Source: Ilumatobacteraceae bacterium (GTDB taxonomy: Bacteria; Actinomycetota; Acidimicrobiia; Acidimicrobiales; Ilumatobacteraceae). Taken from it: 39,026 nt of DNA. Of this stretch, positions 14,318 through 21,001 are shown one piece after another. The notes under the pieces are model-generated. The model made no database searches, had not been told where the DNA came from, and worked only from the letters and a program-made list of their open reading frames with translations. The stretch is taken from NCBI GenBank assembly GCA_025463425.1, contig JAOBWQ010000020.1, positions 1 through 39,026 of the forward strand, given 5' to 3'. Both the position numbers and the translations under genes were made by a program. How positions within the stretch are numbered: the first letter of the stretch is position 1; every line of letters starts with the position of its first letter.

Positions 14318-17300
14318 ATGACGAGTCCCGGGAACCTGTACAGGCCGATCCATCCGGTTCGCTTCGTGACGGCGGCCAGCCTCTTCGACGGGCACGACGC
14401 GTCGATCAACATCATGCGCCGGATCCTGCAGGCCCAGGGCGCCGAGGTGATCCACCTCGGTCACAACCGCTCGGTCGACGAGATCGTCCGTGCGGCGGTG
14501 CAGGAAGACGTGCACGCGCTGGCGATCAGCTCGTACCAGGGCGGCCACGTCGAGTACTTCTCCTACCTGCTCGATCGGCTCCGCGACGAAGGCCGCAGCG
14601 ATGTGCGGATCTATGGCGGTGGCGGTGGCGTGATCGTCGCCGAGGAGATCGAGCTGTTGCAGTCGCGCGGCGTGGCGCGCATCTTCTCGCCGCACGACGG
14701 TCAGCGGATGGGGCTGGCGGAGATGGTCAACACGATGATCCGCGAATCGGATCGGTCGCTCGACCTCCCTCACCCGACCGAGCCCGGCGCAACCATCGAG
14801 GATCTCCTCGGTGGGTCCGAGCGAGCGCTGGCCCGCATCATCACCGTGCTCGAGTCCGGTGCCGCTCCGGAGGCCCTGCTCGCTGCGATCGCGAGCGCGG
14901 CAGGGAAGCGGATCGTGCCCGTGCTCGGCATCACCGGCACCGGTGGCTCGGGCAAGTCGTCGCTGACCGACGAGCTGCTCCGCCGGTTCCGGCTCGCGCA
15001 GGGCGACAAGCTCAAGATCGCGGTCATCGCGGTCGACCCGACCCGACGCCGTGGTGGCGGCGCCCTCCTCGGCGACCGGATCCGGATGAACGCGATCGAC
15101 AGCCCGAGCATCTTCTTCCGCTCGCTGGCAACGCGCGCCGCTGGCGCCGAGGTGCCCGAGTGCCTGGACGTGGTGATCGCCGCCGCCAAGGCCTGGGGCG
15201 CCGATCTCGTGGTGGTCGAGACGCCGGGGATCGGGCAGGGGGACGCGGCGATCGTGCCGCACGTCGACGTGCCGATGTACGTGATGACGCCCGAGTTCGG
15301 CGCGGCGTCACAGCTGGAGAAGATCGACATGCTCGACTTCGCCGAGGTGATCGTGATCAACAAGTTCGAGCGCCGCGGCGCGGAGGACGCGCTGCGCGAT
15401 GTGCGCCGCCAGTACGCCCGCAACCGCGAGCTGTTCGACGTGGCCCAGGCCACGCTGCCGGTGTTCGGGACGATCGCGTCGCGCTTCAACGACGACGGTG
15501 TCACCGCGCTGCACCGCCATCTGGTGACGTTGTTGGCCGCGCGCGGGCTGCCCACAGAGGGTCCGGCGGACGACACCGCCGTCCGCACATCGACCAACCC
15601 CGGCGTGATCGTGCCGCCCGCCCGGCAGCGGTACCTGGCCGACATCTCCGAGACCGTGCGCAGCTACCACGCGCGAACTGTCGCTCAGGCCGAGGTCGCG
15701 CAGCGTCAACAGCAGCTCGACGCGACGGCACAGCTGCTCGAGGACCGTGGTCTCGACGTCGCAGCCGCTGATGTCGTCGGGCTCGCCCTGGACAACCGCG
15801 CCCACCTCGACCGCGACGTCGAGGCGCTGCTGGAGGCGTGGCCGCAACGTCGCGCGGAGCTGGCCGGCCCTGACCGCGCTGTGCGTGAGTCACTGTCCGG
15901 CACCCTGGTGCCGAAGCTGTCGCTGCCTCGCTTCGACGACCACGGCGCGCTCGTCCGCTGGCTGCGCAGCGAGAACCTGCCCGGGCACTTCCCGTACACA
16001 GCCGGCGTGTTCCCGTTCAAGCGCGAGGGCGAGGACCCGGCGCGCATGTTCGCGGGCGAAGGTGGTCCGGCACGCACCAACCGCCGGTTCAAGCTGCTGT
16101 CCGAGGGCCAGCCGGCGACCCGTCTCTCGACCGCGTTCGACTCGGTCACGCTGTACGGCTTCGACCCCGCCGAACGCCCCGACATCTACGGCAAGGTGGG
16201 CAACTCGGGCGTCTCGATCGCGACCCTCGATGACATGAAGGTGCTGTTCGACGGGTTCGATCTCTGCAGCGCGACGACGTCGGTCTCGATGACCATCAAT
16301 GGGCCGGCACCGACGATCCTCGCGATGTTCGTGTGCACCGCGATCGACCAGCAGCTCGCCGCGTTCGCGGCCGAGCACGGACGCGAGGCGGACGCGTCCG
16401 AAGCTGCCGAGGTGCGCGCTCGCACGCTGCGCACCGTGCGCGGCACGGTGCAGGCCGACATCCTCAAGGAGGACCAGGGCCAGAACACGTGCATCTTCTC
16501 GACCGAGTTCAGCCTCGGCGTGATGGCCGACATCGCGCAGTGGTTCGTCGAGCACGACGTCCGCAACTTCTACTCCGTGTCGATCTCCGGCTACCACATC
16601 GCCGAGGCCGGCGCGAACCCGATCAGCCAGCTCGCCTTCACGCTGTCGAACGGGTTCACCTACGTCGAGTCCTATCTCGCTCGCGGCATGGACGTCGACG
16701 ACTTCGCGCCGAACCTGAGCTTCTTCTTCTCCAACGGGATGGATCCGGAGTACACGGTGCTCGGTCGGGTCGCGCGGCGGATCTGGGCGATCGCGATGCG
16801 CGACCGGTACGGCGCGAGCGACCGCTCGCAGAAGCTGAAGTACCACGTGCAGACGAGCGGGCGCTCGCTGCACGCCCAGGAGATGGCGTTCAACGACATC
16901 CGCACCACGCTGCAGGCGCTGTGCGCGATCTACGACAACGCGAACAGCCTGCACACCAACGCCTACGACGAAGCCGTCACGACGCCGACGAACGAGTCCG
17001 TGCGTCGCGCGCTAGCGATCCAGATGGTGATCAACCGCGAGTGGGGTCTGGCGATGAACGAGAACCCGCTGCAGGGCAGCTTCATCGTCGAGGAACTGAC
17101 CGAGATGGTCGAGGCCGCGGTGCTGGCAGAGCTGGACCGGATCTCCGAGCGCGGTGGCGTGCTGGGCGCGATGGAGACCGGCTACCAGCGTGGGCGGATC
17201 CAGGACGAGTCGATGGTCTACGAGCAGCGCAAGCACGACGGCACGCTGCCGATCATCGGCGTCAACACGTTCCTCGACCCGCACGGTTCCCGTGAGGCGT

Positions 17301-17539
17301 CGACGGTCGAGCTGGCGCGGTCGGACTCGGACGAGAAGGACGACCAGATCCGGCGACTGCGCGACTTCCAGCAGCGCCACGCCAACGATCGCCCGCCGGC
17401 CCTCGAGCGACTGCGCGCCGCAGCGTTGGCCGGTGACAACGTGTTCGCCGTGCTCGTCGATGCCGTGCGCTCCTGCACCCTCGGTGAGATCACTGACACC
17501 CTGTTCGAGGTTGGTGGCCGCTACCGCCGCAGCGTCTGA
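14318..17539 (+). CDS. icmF: Fused isobutyryl-CoA mutase (B12-binding domain, MeaB/ArgK-like GTPase, mutase large domain)
   Basis: 1073 aa; DGHDASINIMRRI B12 motif, GTGGSGKSSLTDE P-loop, mutase TIM-barrel region (YGKVGNSGVSIATLDDMKVLFDGFDL...). Confidence 0.93.
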   Translation: MTSPGNLYRPIHPVRFVTAASLFDGHDASINIMRRILQAQGAEVIHLGHNRSVDEIVRAAVQEDVHALAISSYQGGHVEYFSYLLDRLRDEGRSDVRIYGGGGGVIVAEEIELLQSRGVARIFSPHDGQRMGLAEMVNTMIRESDRSLDLPHPTEPGATIEDLLGGSERALARIITVLESGAAPEALLAAIASAAGKRIVPVLGITGTGGSGKSSLTDELLRRFRLAQGDKLKIAVIAVDPTRRRGGGALLGDRIRMNAIDSPSIFFRSLATRAAGAEVPECLDVVIAAAKAWGADLVVVETPGIGQGDAAIVPHVDVPMYVMTPEFGAASQLEKIDMLDFAEVIVINKFERRGAEDALRDVRRQYARNRELFDVAQATLPVFGTIASRFNDDGVTALHRHLVTLLAARGLPTEGPADDTAVRTSTNPGVIVPPARQRYLADISETVRSYHARTVAQAEVAQRQQQLDATAQLLEDRGLDVAAADVVGLALDNRAHLDRDVEALLEAWPQRRAELAGPDRAVRESLSGTLVPKLSLPRFDDHGALVRWLRSENLPGHFPYTAGVFPFKREGEDPARMFAGEGGPARTNRRFKLLSEGQPATRLSTAFDSVTLYGFDPAERPDIYGKVGNSGVSIATLDDMKVLFDGFDLCSATTSVSMTINGPAPTILAMFVCTAIDQQLAAFAAEHGREADASEAAEVRARTLRTVRGTVQADILKEDQGQNTCIFSTEFSLGVMADIAQWFVEHDVRNFYSVSISGYHIAEAGANPISQLAFTLSNGFTYVESYLARGMDVDDFAPNLSFFFSNGMDPEYTVLGRVARRIWAIAMRDRYGASDRSQKLKYHVQTSGRSLHAQEMAFNDIRTTLQALCAIYDNANSLHTNAYDEAVTTPTNESVRRALAIQMVINREWGLAMNENPLQGSFIVEELTEMVEAAVLAELDRISERGGVLGAMETGYQRGRIQDESMVYEQRKHDGTLPIIGVNTFLDPHGSREASTVELARSDSDEKDDQIRRLRDFQQRHANDRPPALERLRAAALAGDNVFAVLVDAVRSCTLGEITDTLFEVGGRYRRSV

Positions 17540-17640: not shown

Positions 17641-18582
17641 ATGGCTGAGCAGGACACACCGGCGACCGGGATGCGGTTCGCAGGACAGGTCGCGGTGGTC
17701 ACCGGCGGCGCGCGCGGGATCGGGCGGGAGTACTCGCTGCTGCTCGCCGCCGAGGGCGCCAGCGTCGTCGTCAACGATCTCGGCGGGGATCGTGCCGGCG
17801 TCGGCGCGGATCCGGGCGAGGCTCAGCGCGTGGTCGACGAGATCACCTCGGCCGGCGGCATTGCCGTCGCCGACGGGCACGACGTGGCCCTCGACGGTGC
17901 CGGGGTGATCGCCACCGCGCTGGCCCAGTTCGGACGGATCGACCTCGTCGTCAACAACGCGGGCATCTCCGGTGGCGGTCGCCTCGACCAGATCCCTCCA
18001 GCGGACTTCGATCGGATGCTCGCGGTCCATCTGGGCGGCACGCTGGCGGTCTGCAGAGCGGCGTGGCCGCACCTCCGTGCACAGGGCTTCGGGCGGGTCG
18101 TGAACACGTCGTCGGCATCGGTCTTCGGCCTCGGCGGCACCAGCGCCTACATCACCGCAAAGGCGGCCATCTTCGGGCTGACTCGGGCGATCGCTCGCGA
18201 TGGCATCGGTGATGGCATCGTCGTCAACGCGGTCATGCCCTCGGCGTACTCACGCCTGACCGCGCAGAGCCCGGAGTTCGCTCCGGTGATGGAGGCCGGC
18301 TTCCCGGCCGGGCGAATCGCGCCGTTCGTCGGCGCGCTCCTGGCGCGCGAGGTGCCATGCCACGGCGAGACGTTCGTGGTCGGTGGTGGCCGGGCGGCGC
18401 GCGTCGTCCTGGCCACGGTGCCCGGGATGATCGACATCTCCACGATCGACGACTGCCTGCAGCGGTTCGACGATGCGATGTCGCTGGATGATCTGTTCGT
18501 GCCGGCTGATGCCGTCGCTGCCGTCGTCTACGAATGCCAGCGGATCGGTCTCGACCTGTCCGCGTTCGCTGCCGCCGACTGA
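17641..18582 (+). CDS. Short-chain dehydrogenase/reductase family protein
   Basis: VAVVTGGARGIGREY, NNAGISG, SSASVFGLGGTSAYITAKAA motifs. Confidence 0.9.
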   Translation: MAEQDTPATGMRFAGQVAVVTGGARGIGREYSLLLAAEGASVVVNDLGGDRAGVGADPGEAQRVVDEITSAGGIAVADGHDVALDGAGVIATALAQFGRIDLVVNNAGISGGGRLDQIPPADFDRMLAVHLGGTLAVCRAAWPHLRAQGFGRVVNTSSASVFGLGGTSAYITAKAAIFGLTRAIARDGIGDGIVVNAVMPSAYSRLTAQSPEFAPVMEAGFPAGRIAPFVGALLAREVPCHGETFVVGGGRAARVVLATVPGMIDISTIDDCLQRFDDAMSLDDLFVPADAVAAVVYECQRIGLDLSAFAAAD

Positions 18583-18656
18583 ACCCCGCGAAGCACGACG
18601 GCTGAGCGGCGGGCGCTCGGCTCTGATCGCCGCGCCATCGGTGGCCCCGGAGGACG

Positions 18657-18686
18657 TTCGGAGAACTTCGGAGGAAGTTCGGAGAA
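18657..18686 (+). repeat. Three direct repeats of TTCGGAG(G)AA spaced 10-11 bp upstream of the cupredoxin gene
   Basis: TTCGGAGAA 18657-18665; TTCGGAGGAA 18667-18676; TTCGGAGAA 18678-18686. Confidence 0.8.
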
Positions 18687-18719
18687 GTTTGCATCCGCAT
18701 TCGATCCGGCGCCGAAAGA

Positions 18720-19208
18720 GTGGCAATGAACATCCGCACCGCCCTTCCTGCCCTCGTGGCAACCATCGGCTTGGCCGCCTTCACGGCCGGCTGCAGCAGC
18801 GACAGCAAGAGCGCCGCGACCACGGCTGCGCCGGTCACCACCGCCGCTCCGGCCGCAACGACGGCAGCGACAGCTGCGCCGACGACTGCTGCCACGACCG
18901 CTCCGGCAGCCTCCTCCGCCGACACGACGGCCGGGTCCACCGCGTCGAGTGGTGCGGCGACCGGCGGGTCCGCCGTCGCCATCGCAGGTTTCAAGTTCGG
19001 CCCGCCCGAGATCGATGTCAAGGTCGGGGACACGGTCACCTGGACCAACAACGACAAGCAGCCCCACACCGCGACGTCGGCGGGCGCATTCGACACCGGC
19101 AGCATCGCCCCTGGCGCGACCGGCACAGCGACCTTCAGCAAGGCGGGCACGTTCGAGTACATCTGCTCGTTCCACCCCTTCATGAAGGGCAAGGTCGTCG
19201 TCAGCTGA
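18720..19208 (+). CDS. Exported lipoprotein with plastocyanin/amicyanin-like cupredoxin domain
   Basis: Lipobox-like TAGCSSD, Thr/Ala linker, PHTAT and YICSFHPFMKG (C-x2-H-x2-M) type-1 copper ligands; start could be 18726. Confidence 0.88.
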   Translation: MAMNIRTALPALVATIGLAAFTAGCSSDSKSAATTAAPVTTAAPAATTAATAAPTTAATTAPAASSADTTAGSTASSGAATGGSAVAIAGFKFGPPEIDVKVGDTVTWTNNDKQPHTATSAGAFDTGSIAPGATGTATFSKAGTFEYICSFHPFMKGKVVVS

Positions 19209-19279
19209 GCTCTGCCGACGATCGGACCATCAACCCCACCCAGCTCCAAACCACCCAGCCTGAACAACAAGGAGACAGC

Positions 19280-20005
19280 ATGCAGATCACCTCACGAGAG
19301 TTCCAGGCGCTTGCCGCCGACGTCGATGACCTCCACAACGAGAGCATGAAGACGTTCGCCGAAGAGACCGCAGAACTCCACCTGGACGCCTACAAGGCCT
19401 CCCGCCGTACCTTCATGGCCGGCTCGGCCGGCCTGGTCGGGGCCGTTGCGATCGGCAGCGCACTCGTGCTCCCCGGCCTTTCCCAGCGGGTTGCTGCGGC
19501 CGGTCTCGACGACAAGACGATCGCCGGCTACGCCCAGAGCGTCGAGCTCGCGGCCGTCGCCGTCTACACGATGGCGGCGCCGCTGCTCACCTCGGCCACG
19601 TTGCCCGTCGCGCAGATGTTCCTGGCCCACCACCAGGCCCACGCCGACGCGTTTGGCGCGGTCGCCGGCGACAAGGCGGTCAAGGCCCCCAACGCCAAGC
19701 TCGTTGCCGCAGTCGGCCCCACGCTGGCCGGGTTGAAGACCGAAGCCGATGCGCTCGGGTTCGCCTTCGTGCTCGAGGGCCAGGCGGCGTACACCTACGC
19801 TGCGGCGCTCACGCTCTTGCAGGATCCGGCCTACGCCGCGGCCACCGCGACGATCCTGCCGATCGAGGCGCAGCACCAGACGGTGCTGGGCATCGCCCTC
19901 GGCAAGAAGGTCACCGATGTCTTCCCGACCGGTGCCTTCGAATCTTCCGCCCTCGGCGATGGCACCGATCCGCTCAAGGGTCTCGACCCGGCGACCTTCG
20001 GCTGA
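19280..20005 (+). CDS. Tat-exported ferritin-like domain protein
   Basis: SRRTFMAGSAGLVGAVAIGSALVL signal; E...HHQAH...E...EAQH diiron-type ligand pattern; SD AAGGAGAC. Confidence 0.85.
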   Translation: MQITSREFQALAADVDDLHNESMKTFAEETAELHLDAYKASRRTFMAGSAGLVGAVAIGSALVLPGLSQRVAAAGLDDKTIAGYAQSVELAAVAVYTMAAPLLTSATLPVAQMFLAHHQAHADAFGAVAGDKAVKAPNAKLVAAVGPTLAGLKTEADALGFAFVLEGQAAYTYAAALTLLQDPAYAAATATILPIEAQHQTVLGIALGKKVTDVFPTGAFESSALGDGTDPLKGLDPATFG

Positions 20006-20034
20006 TCCCGAACTCCACGAAAGGACGATGACTC

Positions 20035-20949
20035 ATGAGCAACAATGACCTCAACAACGAAGAGATCCGCCGCCAGCTGCGTTCCATCGATGCGATGAAC
20101 AAGGAGGCGATGCCGATGTGGCGCAATGCCCTCACCCGGATGTTCGGTGACCCCAACATGTCGACGGACGACAAGGCGGCGCTCCTCGGCGTGCCGGCCC
20201 CTGGTCGCCGCGACATCTTCAAGATGGGCGGTGCCGCGATCGCCGGTGCCGCGCTGCTGGCAGCCTGCGGCAGCGACGACAAGAAGTCGGCCACCACGAC
20301 GGCATCCACCGTTGCGCCGACCACGAGCGTGGCCAGCACGACTGCGGCAACCACGGCGGCCACCACGGGTGCGACGACGCCCGCCACAGAGGGATCCACG
20401 GCGGCGACCGAGGGCTCCACGGCCACCACCGACGGCGGCGGCAACATGGACCTGACGCTGGCCAAGACGGCAGCGTCGCTGGAGAAGCTGGCCGTCGACG
20501 TCTACGGCACCGCTGCGGCGCTGCTCACCACCCCGGCCGTGCTCGACGCAGCGAAGCTGTTCGCCGGGCACCACCAGATGCACCTCGATGCGCTGAACGG
20601 CGTCATCACCGGTGCCGGTGGCAAGGCGGTCACCGAGCAGAACAAGGCAGTGTTCAACGCGCTCATCAAGCCGTCACTGGACAAGGCCAAGAGCGAGTCG
20701 GACGCCCTGATGATCGCAGTGGCCCTGGAAGAGGCAGCGGCGCAGACCTACACCTTCGCCGGCGGTGCGCTCTCCACCCCGGAGCTGCGCTCGACGATCA
20801 TGACGATCGGCGGCGTCGAAGCCCGCCATGCGGCAGTCCTGCGCATGGTCGCCCTGGCGATGACCCCGTTCGACGTGTTCCCCGACAAGCGGGCCTTCTT
20901 CCCCGGCGACAACCCGCTGGCTGCGATCGATGGTGCACTCATCAGCTGA
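20035..20949 (+). CDS. Exported ferritin-like lipoprotein (paralogue of preceding)
   Basis: GRRDIFKMGGAAIAGAALLAACGSDD (Tat/lipobox-like), Thr/Ala linker, E...HHQMH...EE...EARH pattern. Confidence 0.85.
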   Translation: MSNNDLNNEEIRRQLRSIDAMNKEAMPMWRNALTRMFGDPNMSTDDKAALLGVPAPGRRDIFKMGGAAIAGAALLAACGSDDKKSATTTASTVAPTTSVASTTAATTAATTGATTPATEGSTAATEGSTATTDGGGNMDLTLAKTAASLEKLAVDVYGTAAALLTTPAVLDAAKLFAGHHQMHLDALNGVITGAGGKAVTEQNKAVFNALIKPSLDKAKSESDALMIAVALEEAAAQTYTFAGGALSTPELRSTIMTIGGVEARHAAVLRMVALAMTPFDVFPDKRAFFPGDNPLAAIDGALIS

Positions 20950-20975
20950 CCTCCCCCTGCAGCTGAGCAGAGTGT

Positions 20976-21001
20976 CGAGCCCCGGCTTCGGCCGGGGCTC
21001 G
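20976..21001 (+). terminator. Strong hairpin terminator of the cupredoxin-ferritin operon
   Basis: Perfect 11-bp stem CGAGCCCCGGC-TTCG-GCCGGGGCTCG with TTCG loop; no long T-tract follows. Confidence 0.75.

Follow-up and report, generated by a model that had tools for sequence, protein, structure and literature searches.

A cupredoxin gene followed by a pair of ferritin-like genes recurs in Acidimicrobiia and may encode an extracytoplasmic redox-stress module

Introduction

Rubredoxin and rubrerythrin constitute a cytoplasmic system for peroxide reduction. In mycobacteria, the SigK-RskA pair is said, in work by Shukla et al. of 2014, to be redox-sensitive. Another described group is the Ferritin_2 family (PF13668), whose named members are RvFeMP-1 (RvY_06210; PDB 8kce, 8w9k, 8wai, 8x1k), DRB0118, PCC13-62 and Rds1. 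The family occurs in bacteria, plants, fungi and tardigrades and has been linked to desiccation and radiation stress (PMC11616004). Its characterised proteins are Zn/Mg metabolite phosphatases of weak activity, and in RvFeMP-1, Glu90 serves as a bridging ligand and the mutation of Asp135 abolished the activity; we found no biochemically characterised members of PF13668 besides these metallophosphatases (PMC11616004).

Here, we analyze a gene trio from an Ilumatobacteraceae genome (class Acidimicrobiia; assembly of 4.70 Mb in 679 contigs, 79% complete), located in a stretch of 39,026 nt that is hereafter called the window. A first-pass annotation of this DNA had listed a cupredoxin lipoprotein, two ferritin-like paralogues and a closing hairpin, and had recognised no named pathway of such composition. 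All the elements listed were found (Table 1), and our search of the open-access literature likewise revealed no description of the cupredoxin-ferritin-ferritin set.

Results and Discussion

Organization of the locus

Table 1. Features of the trio and its surroundings (positions are those of the window)
Feature	Position	Strand	Remarks
Short-chain dehydrogenase gene	17641-18582	+	First gene 5′ of the trio, with a gap between
CATCC-N15-CCGAA promoter-like element	18692..18716	+	9 nt 5′ of the ATG at 18726
Cupredoxin, amicyanin-like type-1 copper lipoprotein	18726..19208	+	PF00127, PF13473; ligands H114/C147/H150/M153
Ferritin-like protein 1 (PF13668), Tat signal	19280..20005	+	PF13668, E=4e-15
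Ferritin-like protein 2 (PF13668), Tat lipoprotein	20035..20949	+	PF13668, E=2e-17
11-bp perfect hairpin, probable 3′ end of the transcript	20976..21001	+	Inverted repeat
ATPase with two ABC domains	from 21022	+	First gene 3′ of the hairpin

The genes of the trio are separated by only 71 nt (cupredoxin and ferritin 1) and 29 nt (ferritin 1 and ferritin 2), so that they are likely to be transcribed as a single unit. The hairpin behind them, described earlier as strong, proved to be so: all 11 base pairs of the inverted repeat are formed around a 4-nt loop, folding of the 74-nt region gave z=-3.2, and the hairpin sequence is identical at a locus from the same genus (L014). It cannot be classed as a typical intrinsic terminator, since a T-run is absent, and for the same reason the terminator scan made no call at this site. 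A PADLOC search gave no match.

Elsewhere in the window, positions 14318-17539 encode a 1073-aa protein of IcmF-like architecture, in which a B12-binding domain is fused to domains of the MeaB-type GTPase and methylmalonyl-CoA-mutase types.

The cupredoxin

The first gene, for which an alternative start is possible at a GTG (18720), encodes a protein with a Sec-type signal and the lipobox TAGC. It scores 45.4 bits with the Pfam Copper-bind model (PF00127; cut-off 21.2, E=1e-11), also matches PF13473 (E=2.5e-11), and carries all four type-1 ligands, i.e., a histidine followed by C-x2-H-x2-M. Profile and ligands (His, Cys, His, Met) together identify it as a type-1 copper protein, and the lipobox, ligands and Pfam score all agree with the amicyanin-like cupredoxin lipoprotein proposed at first pass. 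The closest solved structures are amicyanins (1sfd, E=9e-18). However, the protein reaches only 66.7 bits with the amicyanin equivalog model TIGR02657 (cut-off 110.2), so it was not accepted as a true amicyanin, and no methylamine dehydrogenase genes were present among the recurring neighbours of the trio. The copper ligands are intact in the trio cupredoxins of the relatives.

At some loci, a small multi-helix membrane domain is fused to cupredoxins or encoded beside them (L020:6177-7169, L024:6945-7652, L010:4548-5456, L018:4808-5290). It has a conserved motif of the type V-H-x-x-L-Y-x-x-G-Y-R, matches no Pfam family above the cut-off, and is a possible candidate for a membrane electron partner.

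The ferritin-like pair and its export signals

Both ferritin-like proteins belong to Ferritin_2, scoring 56.6 bits (ferritin 1) and 64.0 bits (ferritin 2) against a curated cut-off of 24.7. They share 42% identity over 165 aa (E=1e-22), in line with the paralogy claimed for them. The export signals read at first pass are likewise present as motifs, SRRTFM in ferritin 1 and GRRDIFK together with a LAAC lipobox in ferritin 2, and in both proteins a twin-arginine motif precedes a hydrophobic stretch, as would be expected of Tat substrates; the TAT models of Pfam and NCBIfam gave matches below their cut-offs only. Among the ferritins of the class, a Tat motif was found in 30 of 38 first genes and 35 of 38 second genes. 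The Tat pathway exports folded proteins, which favours metal loading in the cytoplasm, and the Tat motif on the ferritins versus the Sec-type signal on the cupredoxin favours such loading for the ferritins. At L019, L027, L028, L038 and L067, the Ferritin_2 pairs have genes for TatA/B-like proteins (in some cases also TatC-like) no more than a few genes away, which agrees with Tat export of the pair.

In ferritin 1 and its class orthologues, the twin-arginine motif is preceded by a conserved stretch of ~40-60 residues (~40 in ferritin 1 itself, window 19280-19405; e.g., DVDDLHNESM), which is unusually long for a Tat signal; the median RR position in this group is 40. This extension was rejected as a second ferritin domain (domain i-E 12).

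Ferritin 1 contains no cysteine and ferritin 2 only that of the lipobox; neither has a CxxC pair or a rubredoxin domain. Judged from the sequences, the electron partner would thus have to be a separate protein. An assignment to the rubrerythrins was rejected because the Pfam Rubrerythrin score (12.9 bits) is below the cut-off (22.8) and the rubredoxin-type Cys4 domain is absent.

AlphaFold2, run on the two window ferritin sequences only, predicted a four-helix bundle for each (pLDDT 69.2 for ferritin 1; pLDDT 72.5 and pTM 0.74 for ferritin 2). These fold predictions are of moderate confidence; by sequence position, the metal ligands would sit on the helices of the predicted bundles. In Foldseek, both models gave E-values of about 0.002-0.01 and TM-scores mostly of 0.55-0.72, the matches being mini-bacterioferritin and Dps-like folds for ferritin 1, and DPSL, bacterioferritin-like folds and RvY_06210 for ferritin 2. 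Searching the PDB with single sequences returned chance matches only; with the class profile, RvY_06210 was recovered (E=0.004).

A class-wide ligand change in the metal site

The ligand pattern E / HHQxH / E / ExxH noted earlier is present in both window ferritins, each of which carries the complete set: E89, H118, H121, E166, E196 and H199 in ferritin 1, and E150, H180, H183, E232, E262 and H265 in ferritin 2. In the class alignment, the ligand columns read E / H-x2-H / E / E-x2-H, whereas the proteins from the other classes of the phylum keep the classical E / ExxH / E / ExxH. The count over 117 proteins of this one phylum clearly showed the difference: the first position of helix 2 is His in all 81 class proteins versus Glu in all 36 proteins from the other classes. 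The mapping of this column is independently backed by the profile alignment to RvY_06210, which has Glu90 there and His93 three residues later. The helix-2 Glu-to-His exchange is a fixed first-shell ligand change throughout the class. The dinuclear site proposed in the first-pass annotation is thus borne out as far as its conserved ligands are concerned, but not as a diiron-carboxylate site: the canonical set E / ExxH / E / ExxH was rejected because His takes the place of the usual helix-2 Glu, the other ligands being kept.

Some class proteins have lost ligands, with the second His of helix 2 replaced in 17 of 81 (A, Y, Q or T) and the helix-4 Glu in 15 of 81 (D, A or S), so that in some lineages one of the two partners may play a structural part.

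The first-pass annotation had also suggested assays for ferroxidase and peroxidase activity, neither of which has a counterpart among the characterised PF13668 members that we found. After export, the pair might instead act as metallophosphatases of the RvFeMP/DRB0118 type and clear damaged or excess metabolites under stress, the cupredoxin being merely a co-regulated stress protein. Such a function would be in keeping with the common Pfam family and its stress link (PMC11616004), and both the class profile and the ferritin 2 model align with RvY_06210, whose structure is the only one solved in the family. We nevertheless consider it rather improbable, since the residues that matter in RvFeMP-1 are changed. 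The Asp135 column, three residues after the helix-3 Glu, holds Ala in both window ferritins, so that they lack this mark of RvFeMP-type enzymes; it holds Ala in 73 of 81 class proteins and Gly in 32 of 36 from the other classes, with no Asp among the residues counted in the 117 proteins. The absence of Asp135 from the window ferritins weakens a phosphatase reading, as do the replacement of the bridging Glu90 by His in every class protein and the retention of the canonical helix-4 His.

The extra His, favouring softer metals, might suggest that the site binds copper and that the trio serves to buffer or store this metal outside the cytoplasm with the cupredoxin as a shuttle. The window does encode a copper-type P1B ATPase (CopA-type, HMA domain) and, after it, a metal-sensitive repressor of the CsoR type (378-2966); however, these genes lie 16 kb from the trio and outside its recurring neighbourhood, and a copper link through them was rejected as too distant and not recurrent. 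In addition, the site still contains three carboxylates, and Tat export favours loading before export, in the cytoplasm, where free copper is very low. We regard copper handling as improbable; the metal in the site would more likely be Mn or Fe than Cu.

Recurrence of the trio and of the pair

The survey sample comprised 61 genomes, i.e., our own and 60 relatives. Ferritin_2 was present in 44 of them and a cupredoxin match in 49, in some as low-complexity matches only. A comparison of coordinates showed the cupredoxin gene just upstream of a tandem Ferritin_2 pair, on the same strand, in 13 of the 44 ferritin-bearing genomes (G000, G001, G004, G005, G019, G023, G028, G034, G037, G039, G041, G044, G056; in G005, the second ferritin extends past the contig end). 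The co-occurrence is thus not confined to one genome, the case in which the first-pass proposal would have failed. Of 20 class loci picked solely by their ferritin match (L033-L052), six have a cupredoxin next to the pair (L033, L035, L038, L042, L043 and L044, being 3′ of the pair in L044), versus none of 20 loci from the other classes of the phylum (L053-L072). Taken together, the genomes and loci place the trio in at least 11 families (f1, f2, f4, f6, f9, f21, f22, f26, f27, f49, f63). Genes in the fetched loci were called by a simple script, which missed the pair in L042; this pair was read by hand.

The Ferritin_2 genes nearly always occur in tandem pairs. A tree of 108 core domains contains two first-gene and two second-gene lineages within the class, and all proteins from other classes form a separate, well supported group. 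These parallel lineages indicate that the pairs descend together, and cupredoxins accompany both deep pair lineages. Many class pairs have no adjoining cupredoxin (e.g., L025-L032, and L009, the second pair of our own genome, which lies behind a P-type ATPase gene), so that the pair can either work without a cupredoxin or use one encoded elsewhere. Although such pairs would be in keeping with chance or purely positional adjacency of the trio genes, without any joint function, this is highly improbable given the upstream, same-strand position of the cupredoxin in so many families and in both deep ferritin lineages; at ~2 cupredoxin genes per ~3,500 genes, we estimate the probability of chance adjacency at ~1/1000 or less per locus.

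At a number of class loci, the Ferritin_2 pair stands behind a gene for an FGGY-type sugar/glycerol kinase (L029-L032, L035, L036, L048, L049, L051, L052), the kinase gene being directly 5′ except in L035, where the pair stands two genes behind it. Eight of these loci also have genes for FAD-dependent glycerol-3-phosphate-dehydrogenase-like and FAD-oxidase-like proteins 5′ of the pair.

Sigma factor genes and a promoter-like element

By cluster count, ECF sigma factor genes lie near 14 of 61 ferritin loci and anti-sigma genes near 11 of 61, plus L042. The RskA_C domain scored over the cut-off in every anti-sigma protein tested, including one from our own genome, and sigma/anti-sigma genes beside ferritins were also found outside the class, in family f75 (L056, L057, L060, L070). 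These data make sigma control of Ferritin_2 pairs in general likely.

For the window trio, the promoter-like element (Table 1) would give rise to a nearly leaderless mRNA. A same-genus locus (L013) matches the window exactly over about 50 nt, from GTTTGCATCC into the start of the coding sequence, and diverges in the preceding DNA. CATCC-N15-CCGAA resembles what we take to be the mycobacterial SigK consensus and also occurs at -32 of the sigK-rskA operon of our own genome. Upstream of the class pairs and trios, this motif, picked after inspection, was found in 11 of 38 cases versus 6 of 178 controls (p=7e-6). Since the motif is post hoc and is present at only one of the 11 sigK operons tested, being absent upstream of the other 10, the case for SigK/RskA-type control of the trio is only suggestive.

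The sigK-rskA region is present in our own assembly in two near-identical copies on separate contigs (L075 = G000:C287, L076 = G000:C273), perhaps reflecting a strain mixture or a duplication. Just 5′ of the promoter-like element lie three phased direct repeats of the CGGAG type with a spacing of 10-11 nt (window 18648-18689); they were rejected as an operator because they are absent in L013.

Direction of electron transfer

The pairing of a type-1 copper carrier with exported dinuclear ferritin-like proteins, the core of the first-pass proposal, is supported by its recurrence and by the conserved ligands of both partners, even though the diiron part of it had to be given up. Sequence alone does not distinguish between the oxidation of Fe or Mn, a role in oxidative stress and the handling of copper. 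The helix-4 His, the predicted Tat export, the lack of a rubredoxin domain and the presence of a blue-copper protein next to the pair fit an electron-transfer enzyme, and the sigma/anti-sigma link together with the rubrerythrin parallel led us to rank the reduction of peroxide or O2 first. Its main rival is the oxidase direction, in which the pair would oxidise Fe(II)/Mn(II) outside the membrane, either to detoxify the metal or to form minerals, and the cupredoxin would pass the electrons to the respiratory chain. This direction fits the same trio anatomy; cupredoxins act as electron carriers in known iron-oxidation chains, and the small membrane protein fused to or beside the cupredoxin in L020, L024 and L018 could be an electron acceptor. 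Yet genes for cytochrome c or oxidases do not recur beside the trio, and the pair exists in many lineages without a cupredoxin, so that we consider the oxidase direction unlikely, if less so than the other alternatives weighed above.

Conclusions

Our preferred explanation, held tentatively and at somewhat less than an even chance, is that the trio forms a one-transcript extracytoplasmic redox-stress module in which the cupredoxin delivers electrons to the ferritin-like pair. The two Ferritin_2 paralogues, which are divergent and maintained as a pair, would be exported via Tat in a folded state, one of them with a lipid anchor, and their metals would already be bound in a dinuclear site E / HxxH / E / ExxH. 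With this site, the blue-copper lipoprotein, exported via Sec, would exchange single electrons, most likely as the donor, and the pair would act at the cell surface to reduce peroxide or O2; expression of the trio would probably be under an ECF sigma factor of the SigK/RskA type. The redox-stress module is supported by the recurrence of the set, the intact copper ligands, the nearly invariant dinuclear ligands, the RskA_C anti-sigma and ECF sigma genes beside the pairs, and the upstream element in common with the sigK-rskA operon of the same genome. Against it stand the cupredoxin-less pairs, the phosphatase function of all the characterised PF13668 proteins that we found (PMC11616004), the ligand loss in some paralogues and the post hoc promoter element, and the sequence fixes neither the metal nor the electron direction.

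If the proposal is true, the trio adds to the rare cases in which a ferritin-like enzyme is served by a copper protein. The fixed class-wide change of a bridging ligand, the dedicated copper carrier and the stress sigma factor amount to a natural experiment on the tuning of the PF13668 site, and this setting makes the function of the family directly testable. A bolder reading, which we find doubtful, is that of a new class of envelope enzyme, i.e., a paired ferritin-like oxidoreductase with a three-Glu/three-His site, a dedicated blue-copper donor and a redox-sensing SigK/RskA switch, serving the class as a surface defence against peroxide or oxygen in place of rubredoxin-rubrerythrin.

As to the known systems, the cupredoxin shares the fold family and the four copper ligands of amicyanins and plastocyanins, but differs from amicyanin in being a lipoprotein and in scoring below the equivalog cut-off. 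The single-chain predicted fold of the ferritins resembles Dps and bacterioferritin. With the RvFeMP-1 group, they have in common PF13668 membership, export, a dinuclear four-helix-bundle site and the stress association of the family (PMC11616004); unlike that group, they carry His for Glu90 and Ala for Asp135, keep the helix-4 His, and are encoded as a tandem pair with a cupredoxin and sigma-factor neighbours. The mycobacterial SigK-RskA regulon is governed by a sigma/anti-sigma pair of the type that lies beside Ferritin_2 pairs (RskA_C domain) and likewise comprises exported proteins, but its target genes differ from the window trio (PMC7509140). Finally, in rubredoxin-rubrerythrin a small one-electron metalloprotein likewise stands beside a ferritin-like dinuclear protein, whereas the trio has blue copper, is placed outside the membrane, lacks a rubredoxin domain and has His-swapped ligands. 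In other words, the trio is perhaps the copper-protein counterpart of the cytoplasmic rubredoxin-rubrerythrin system.
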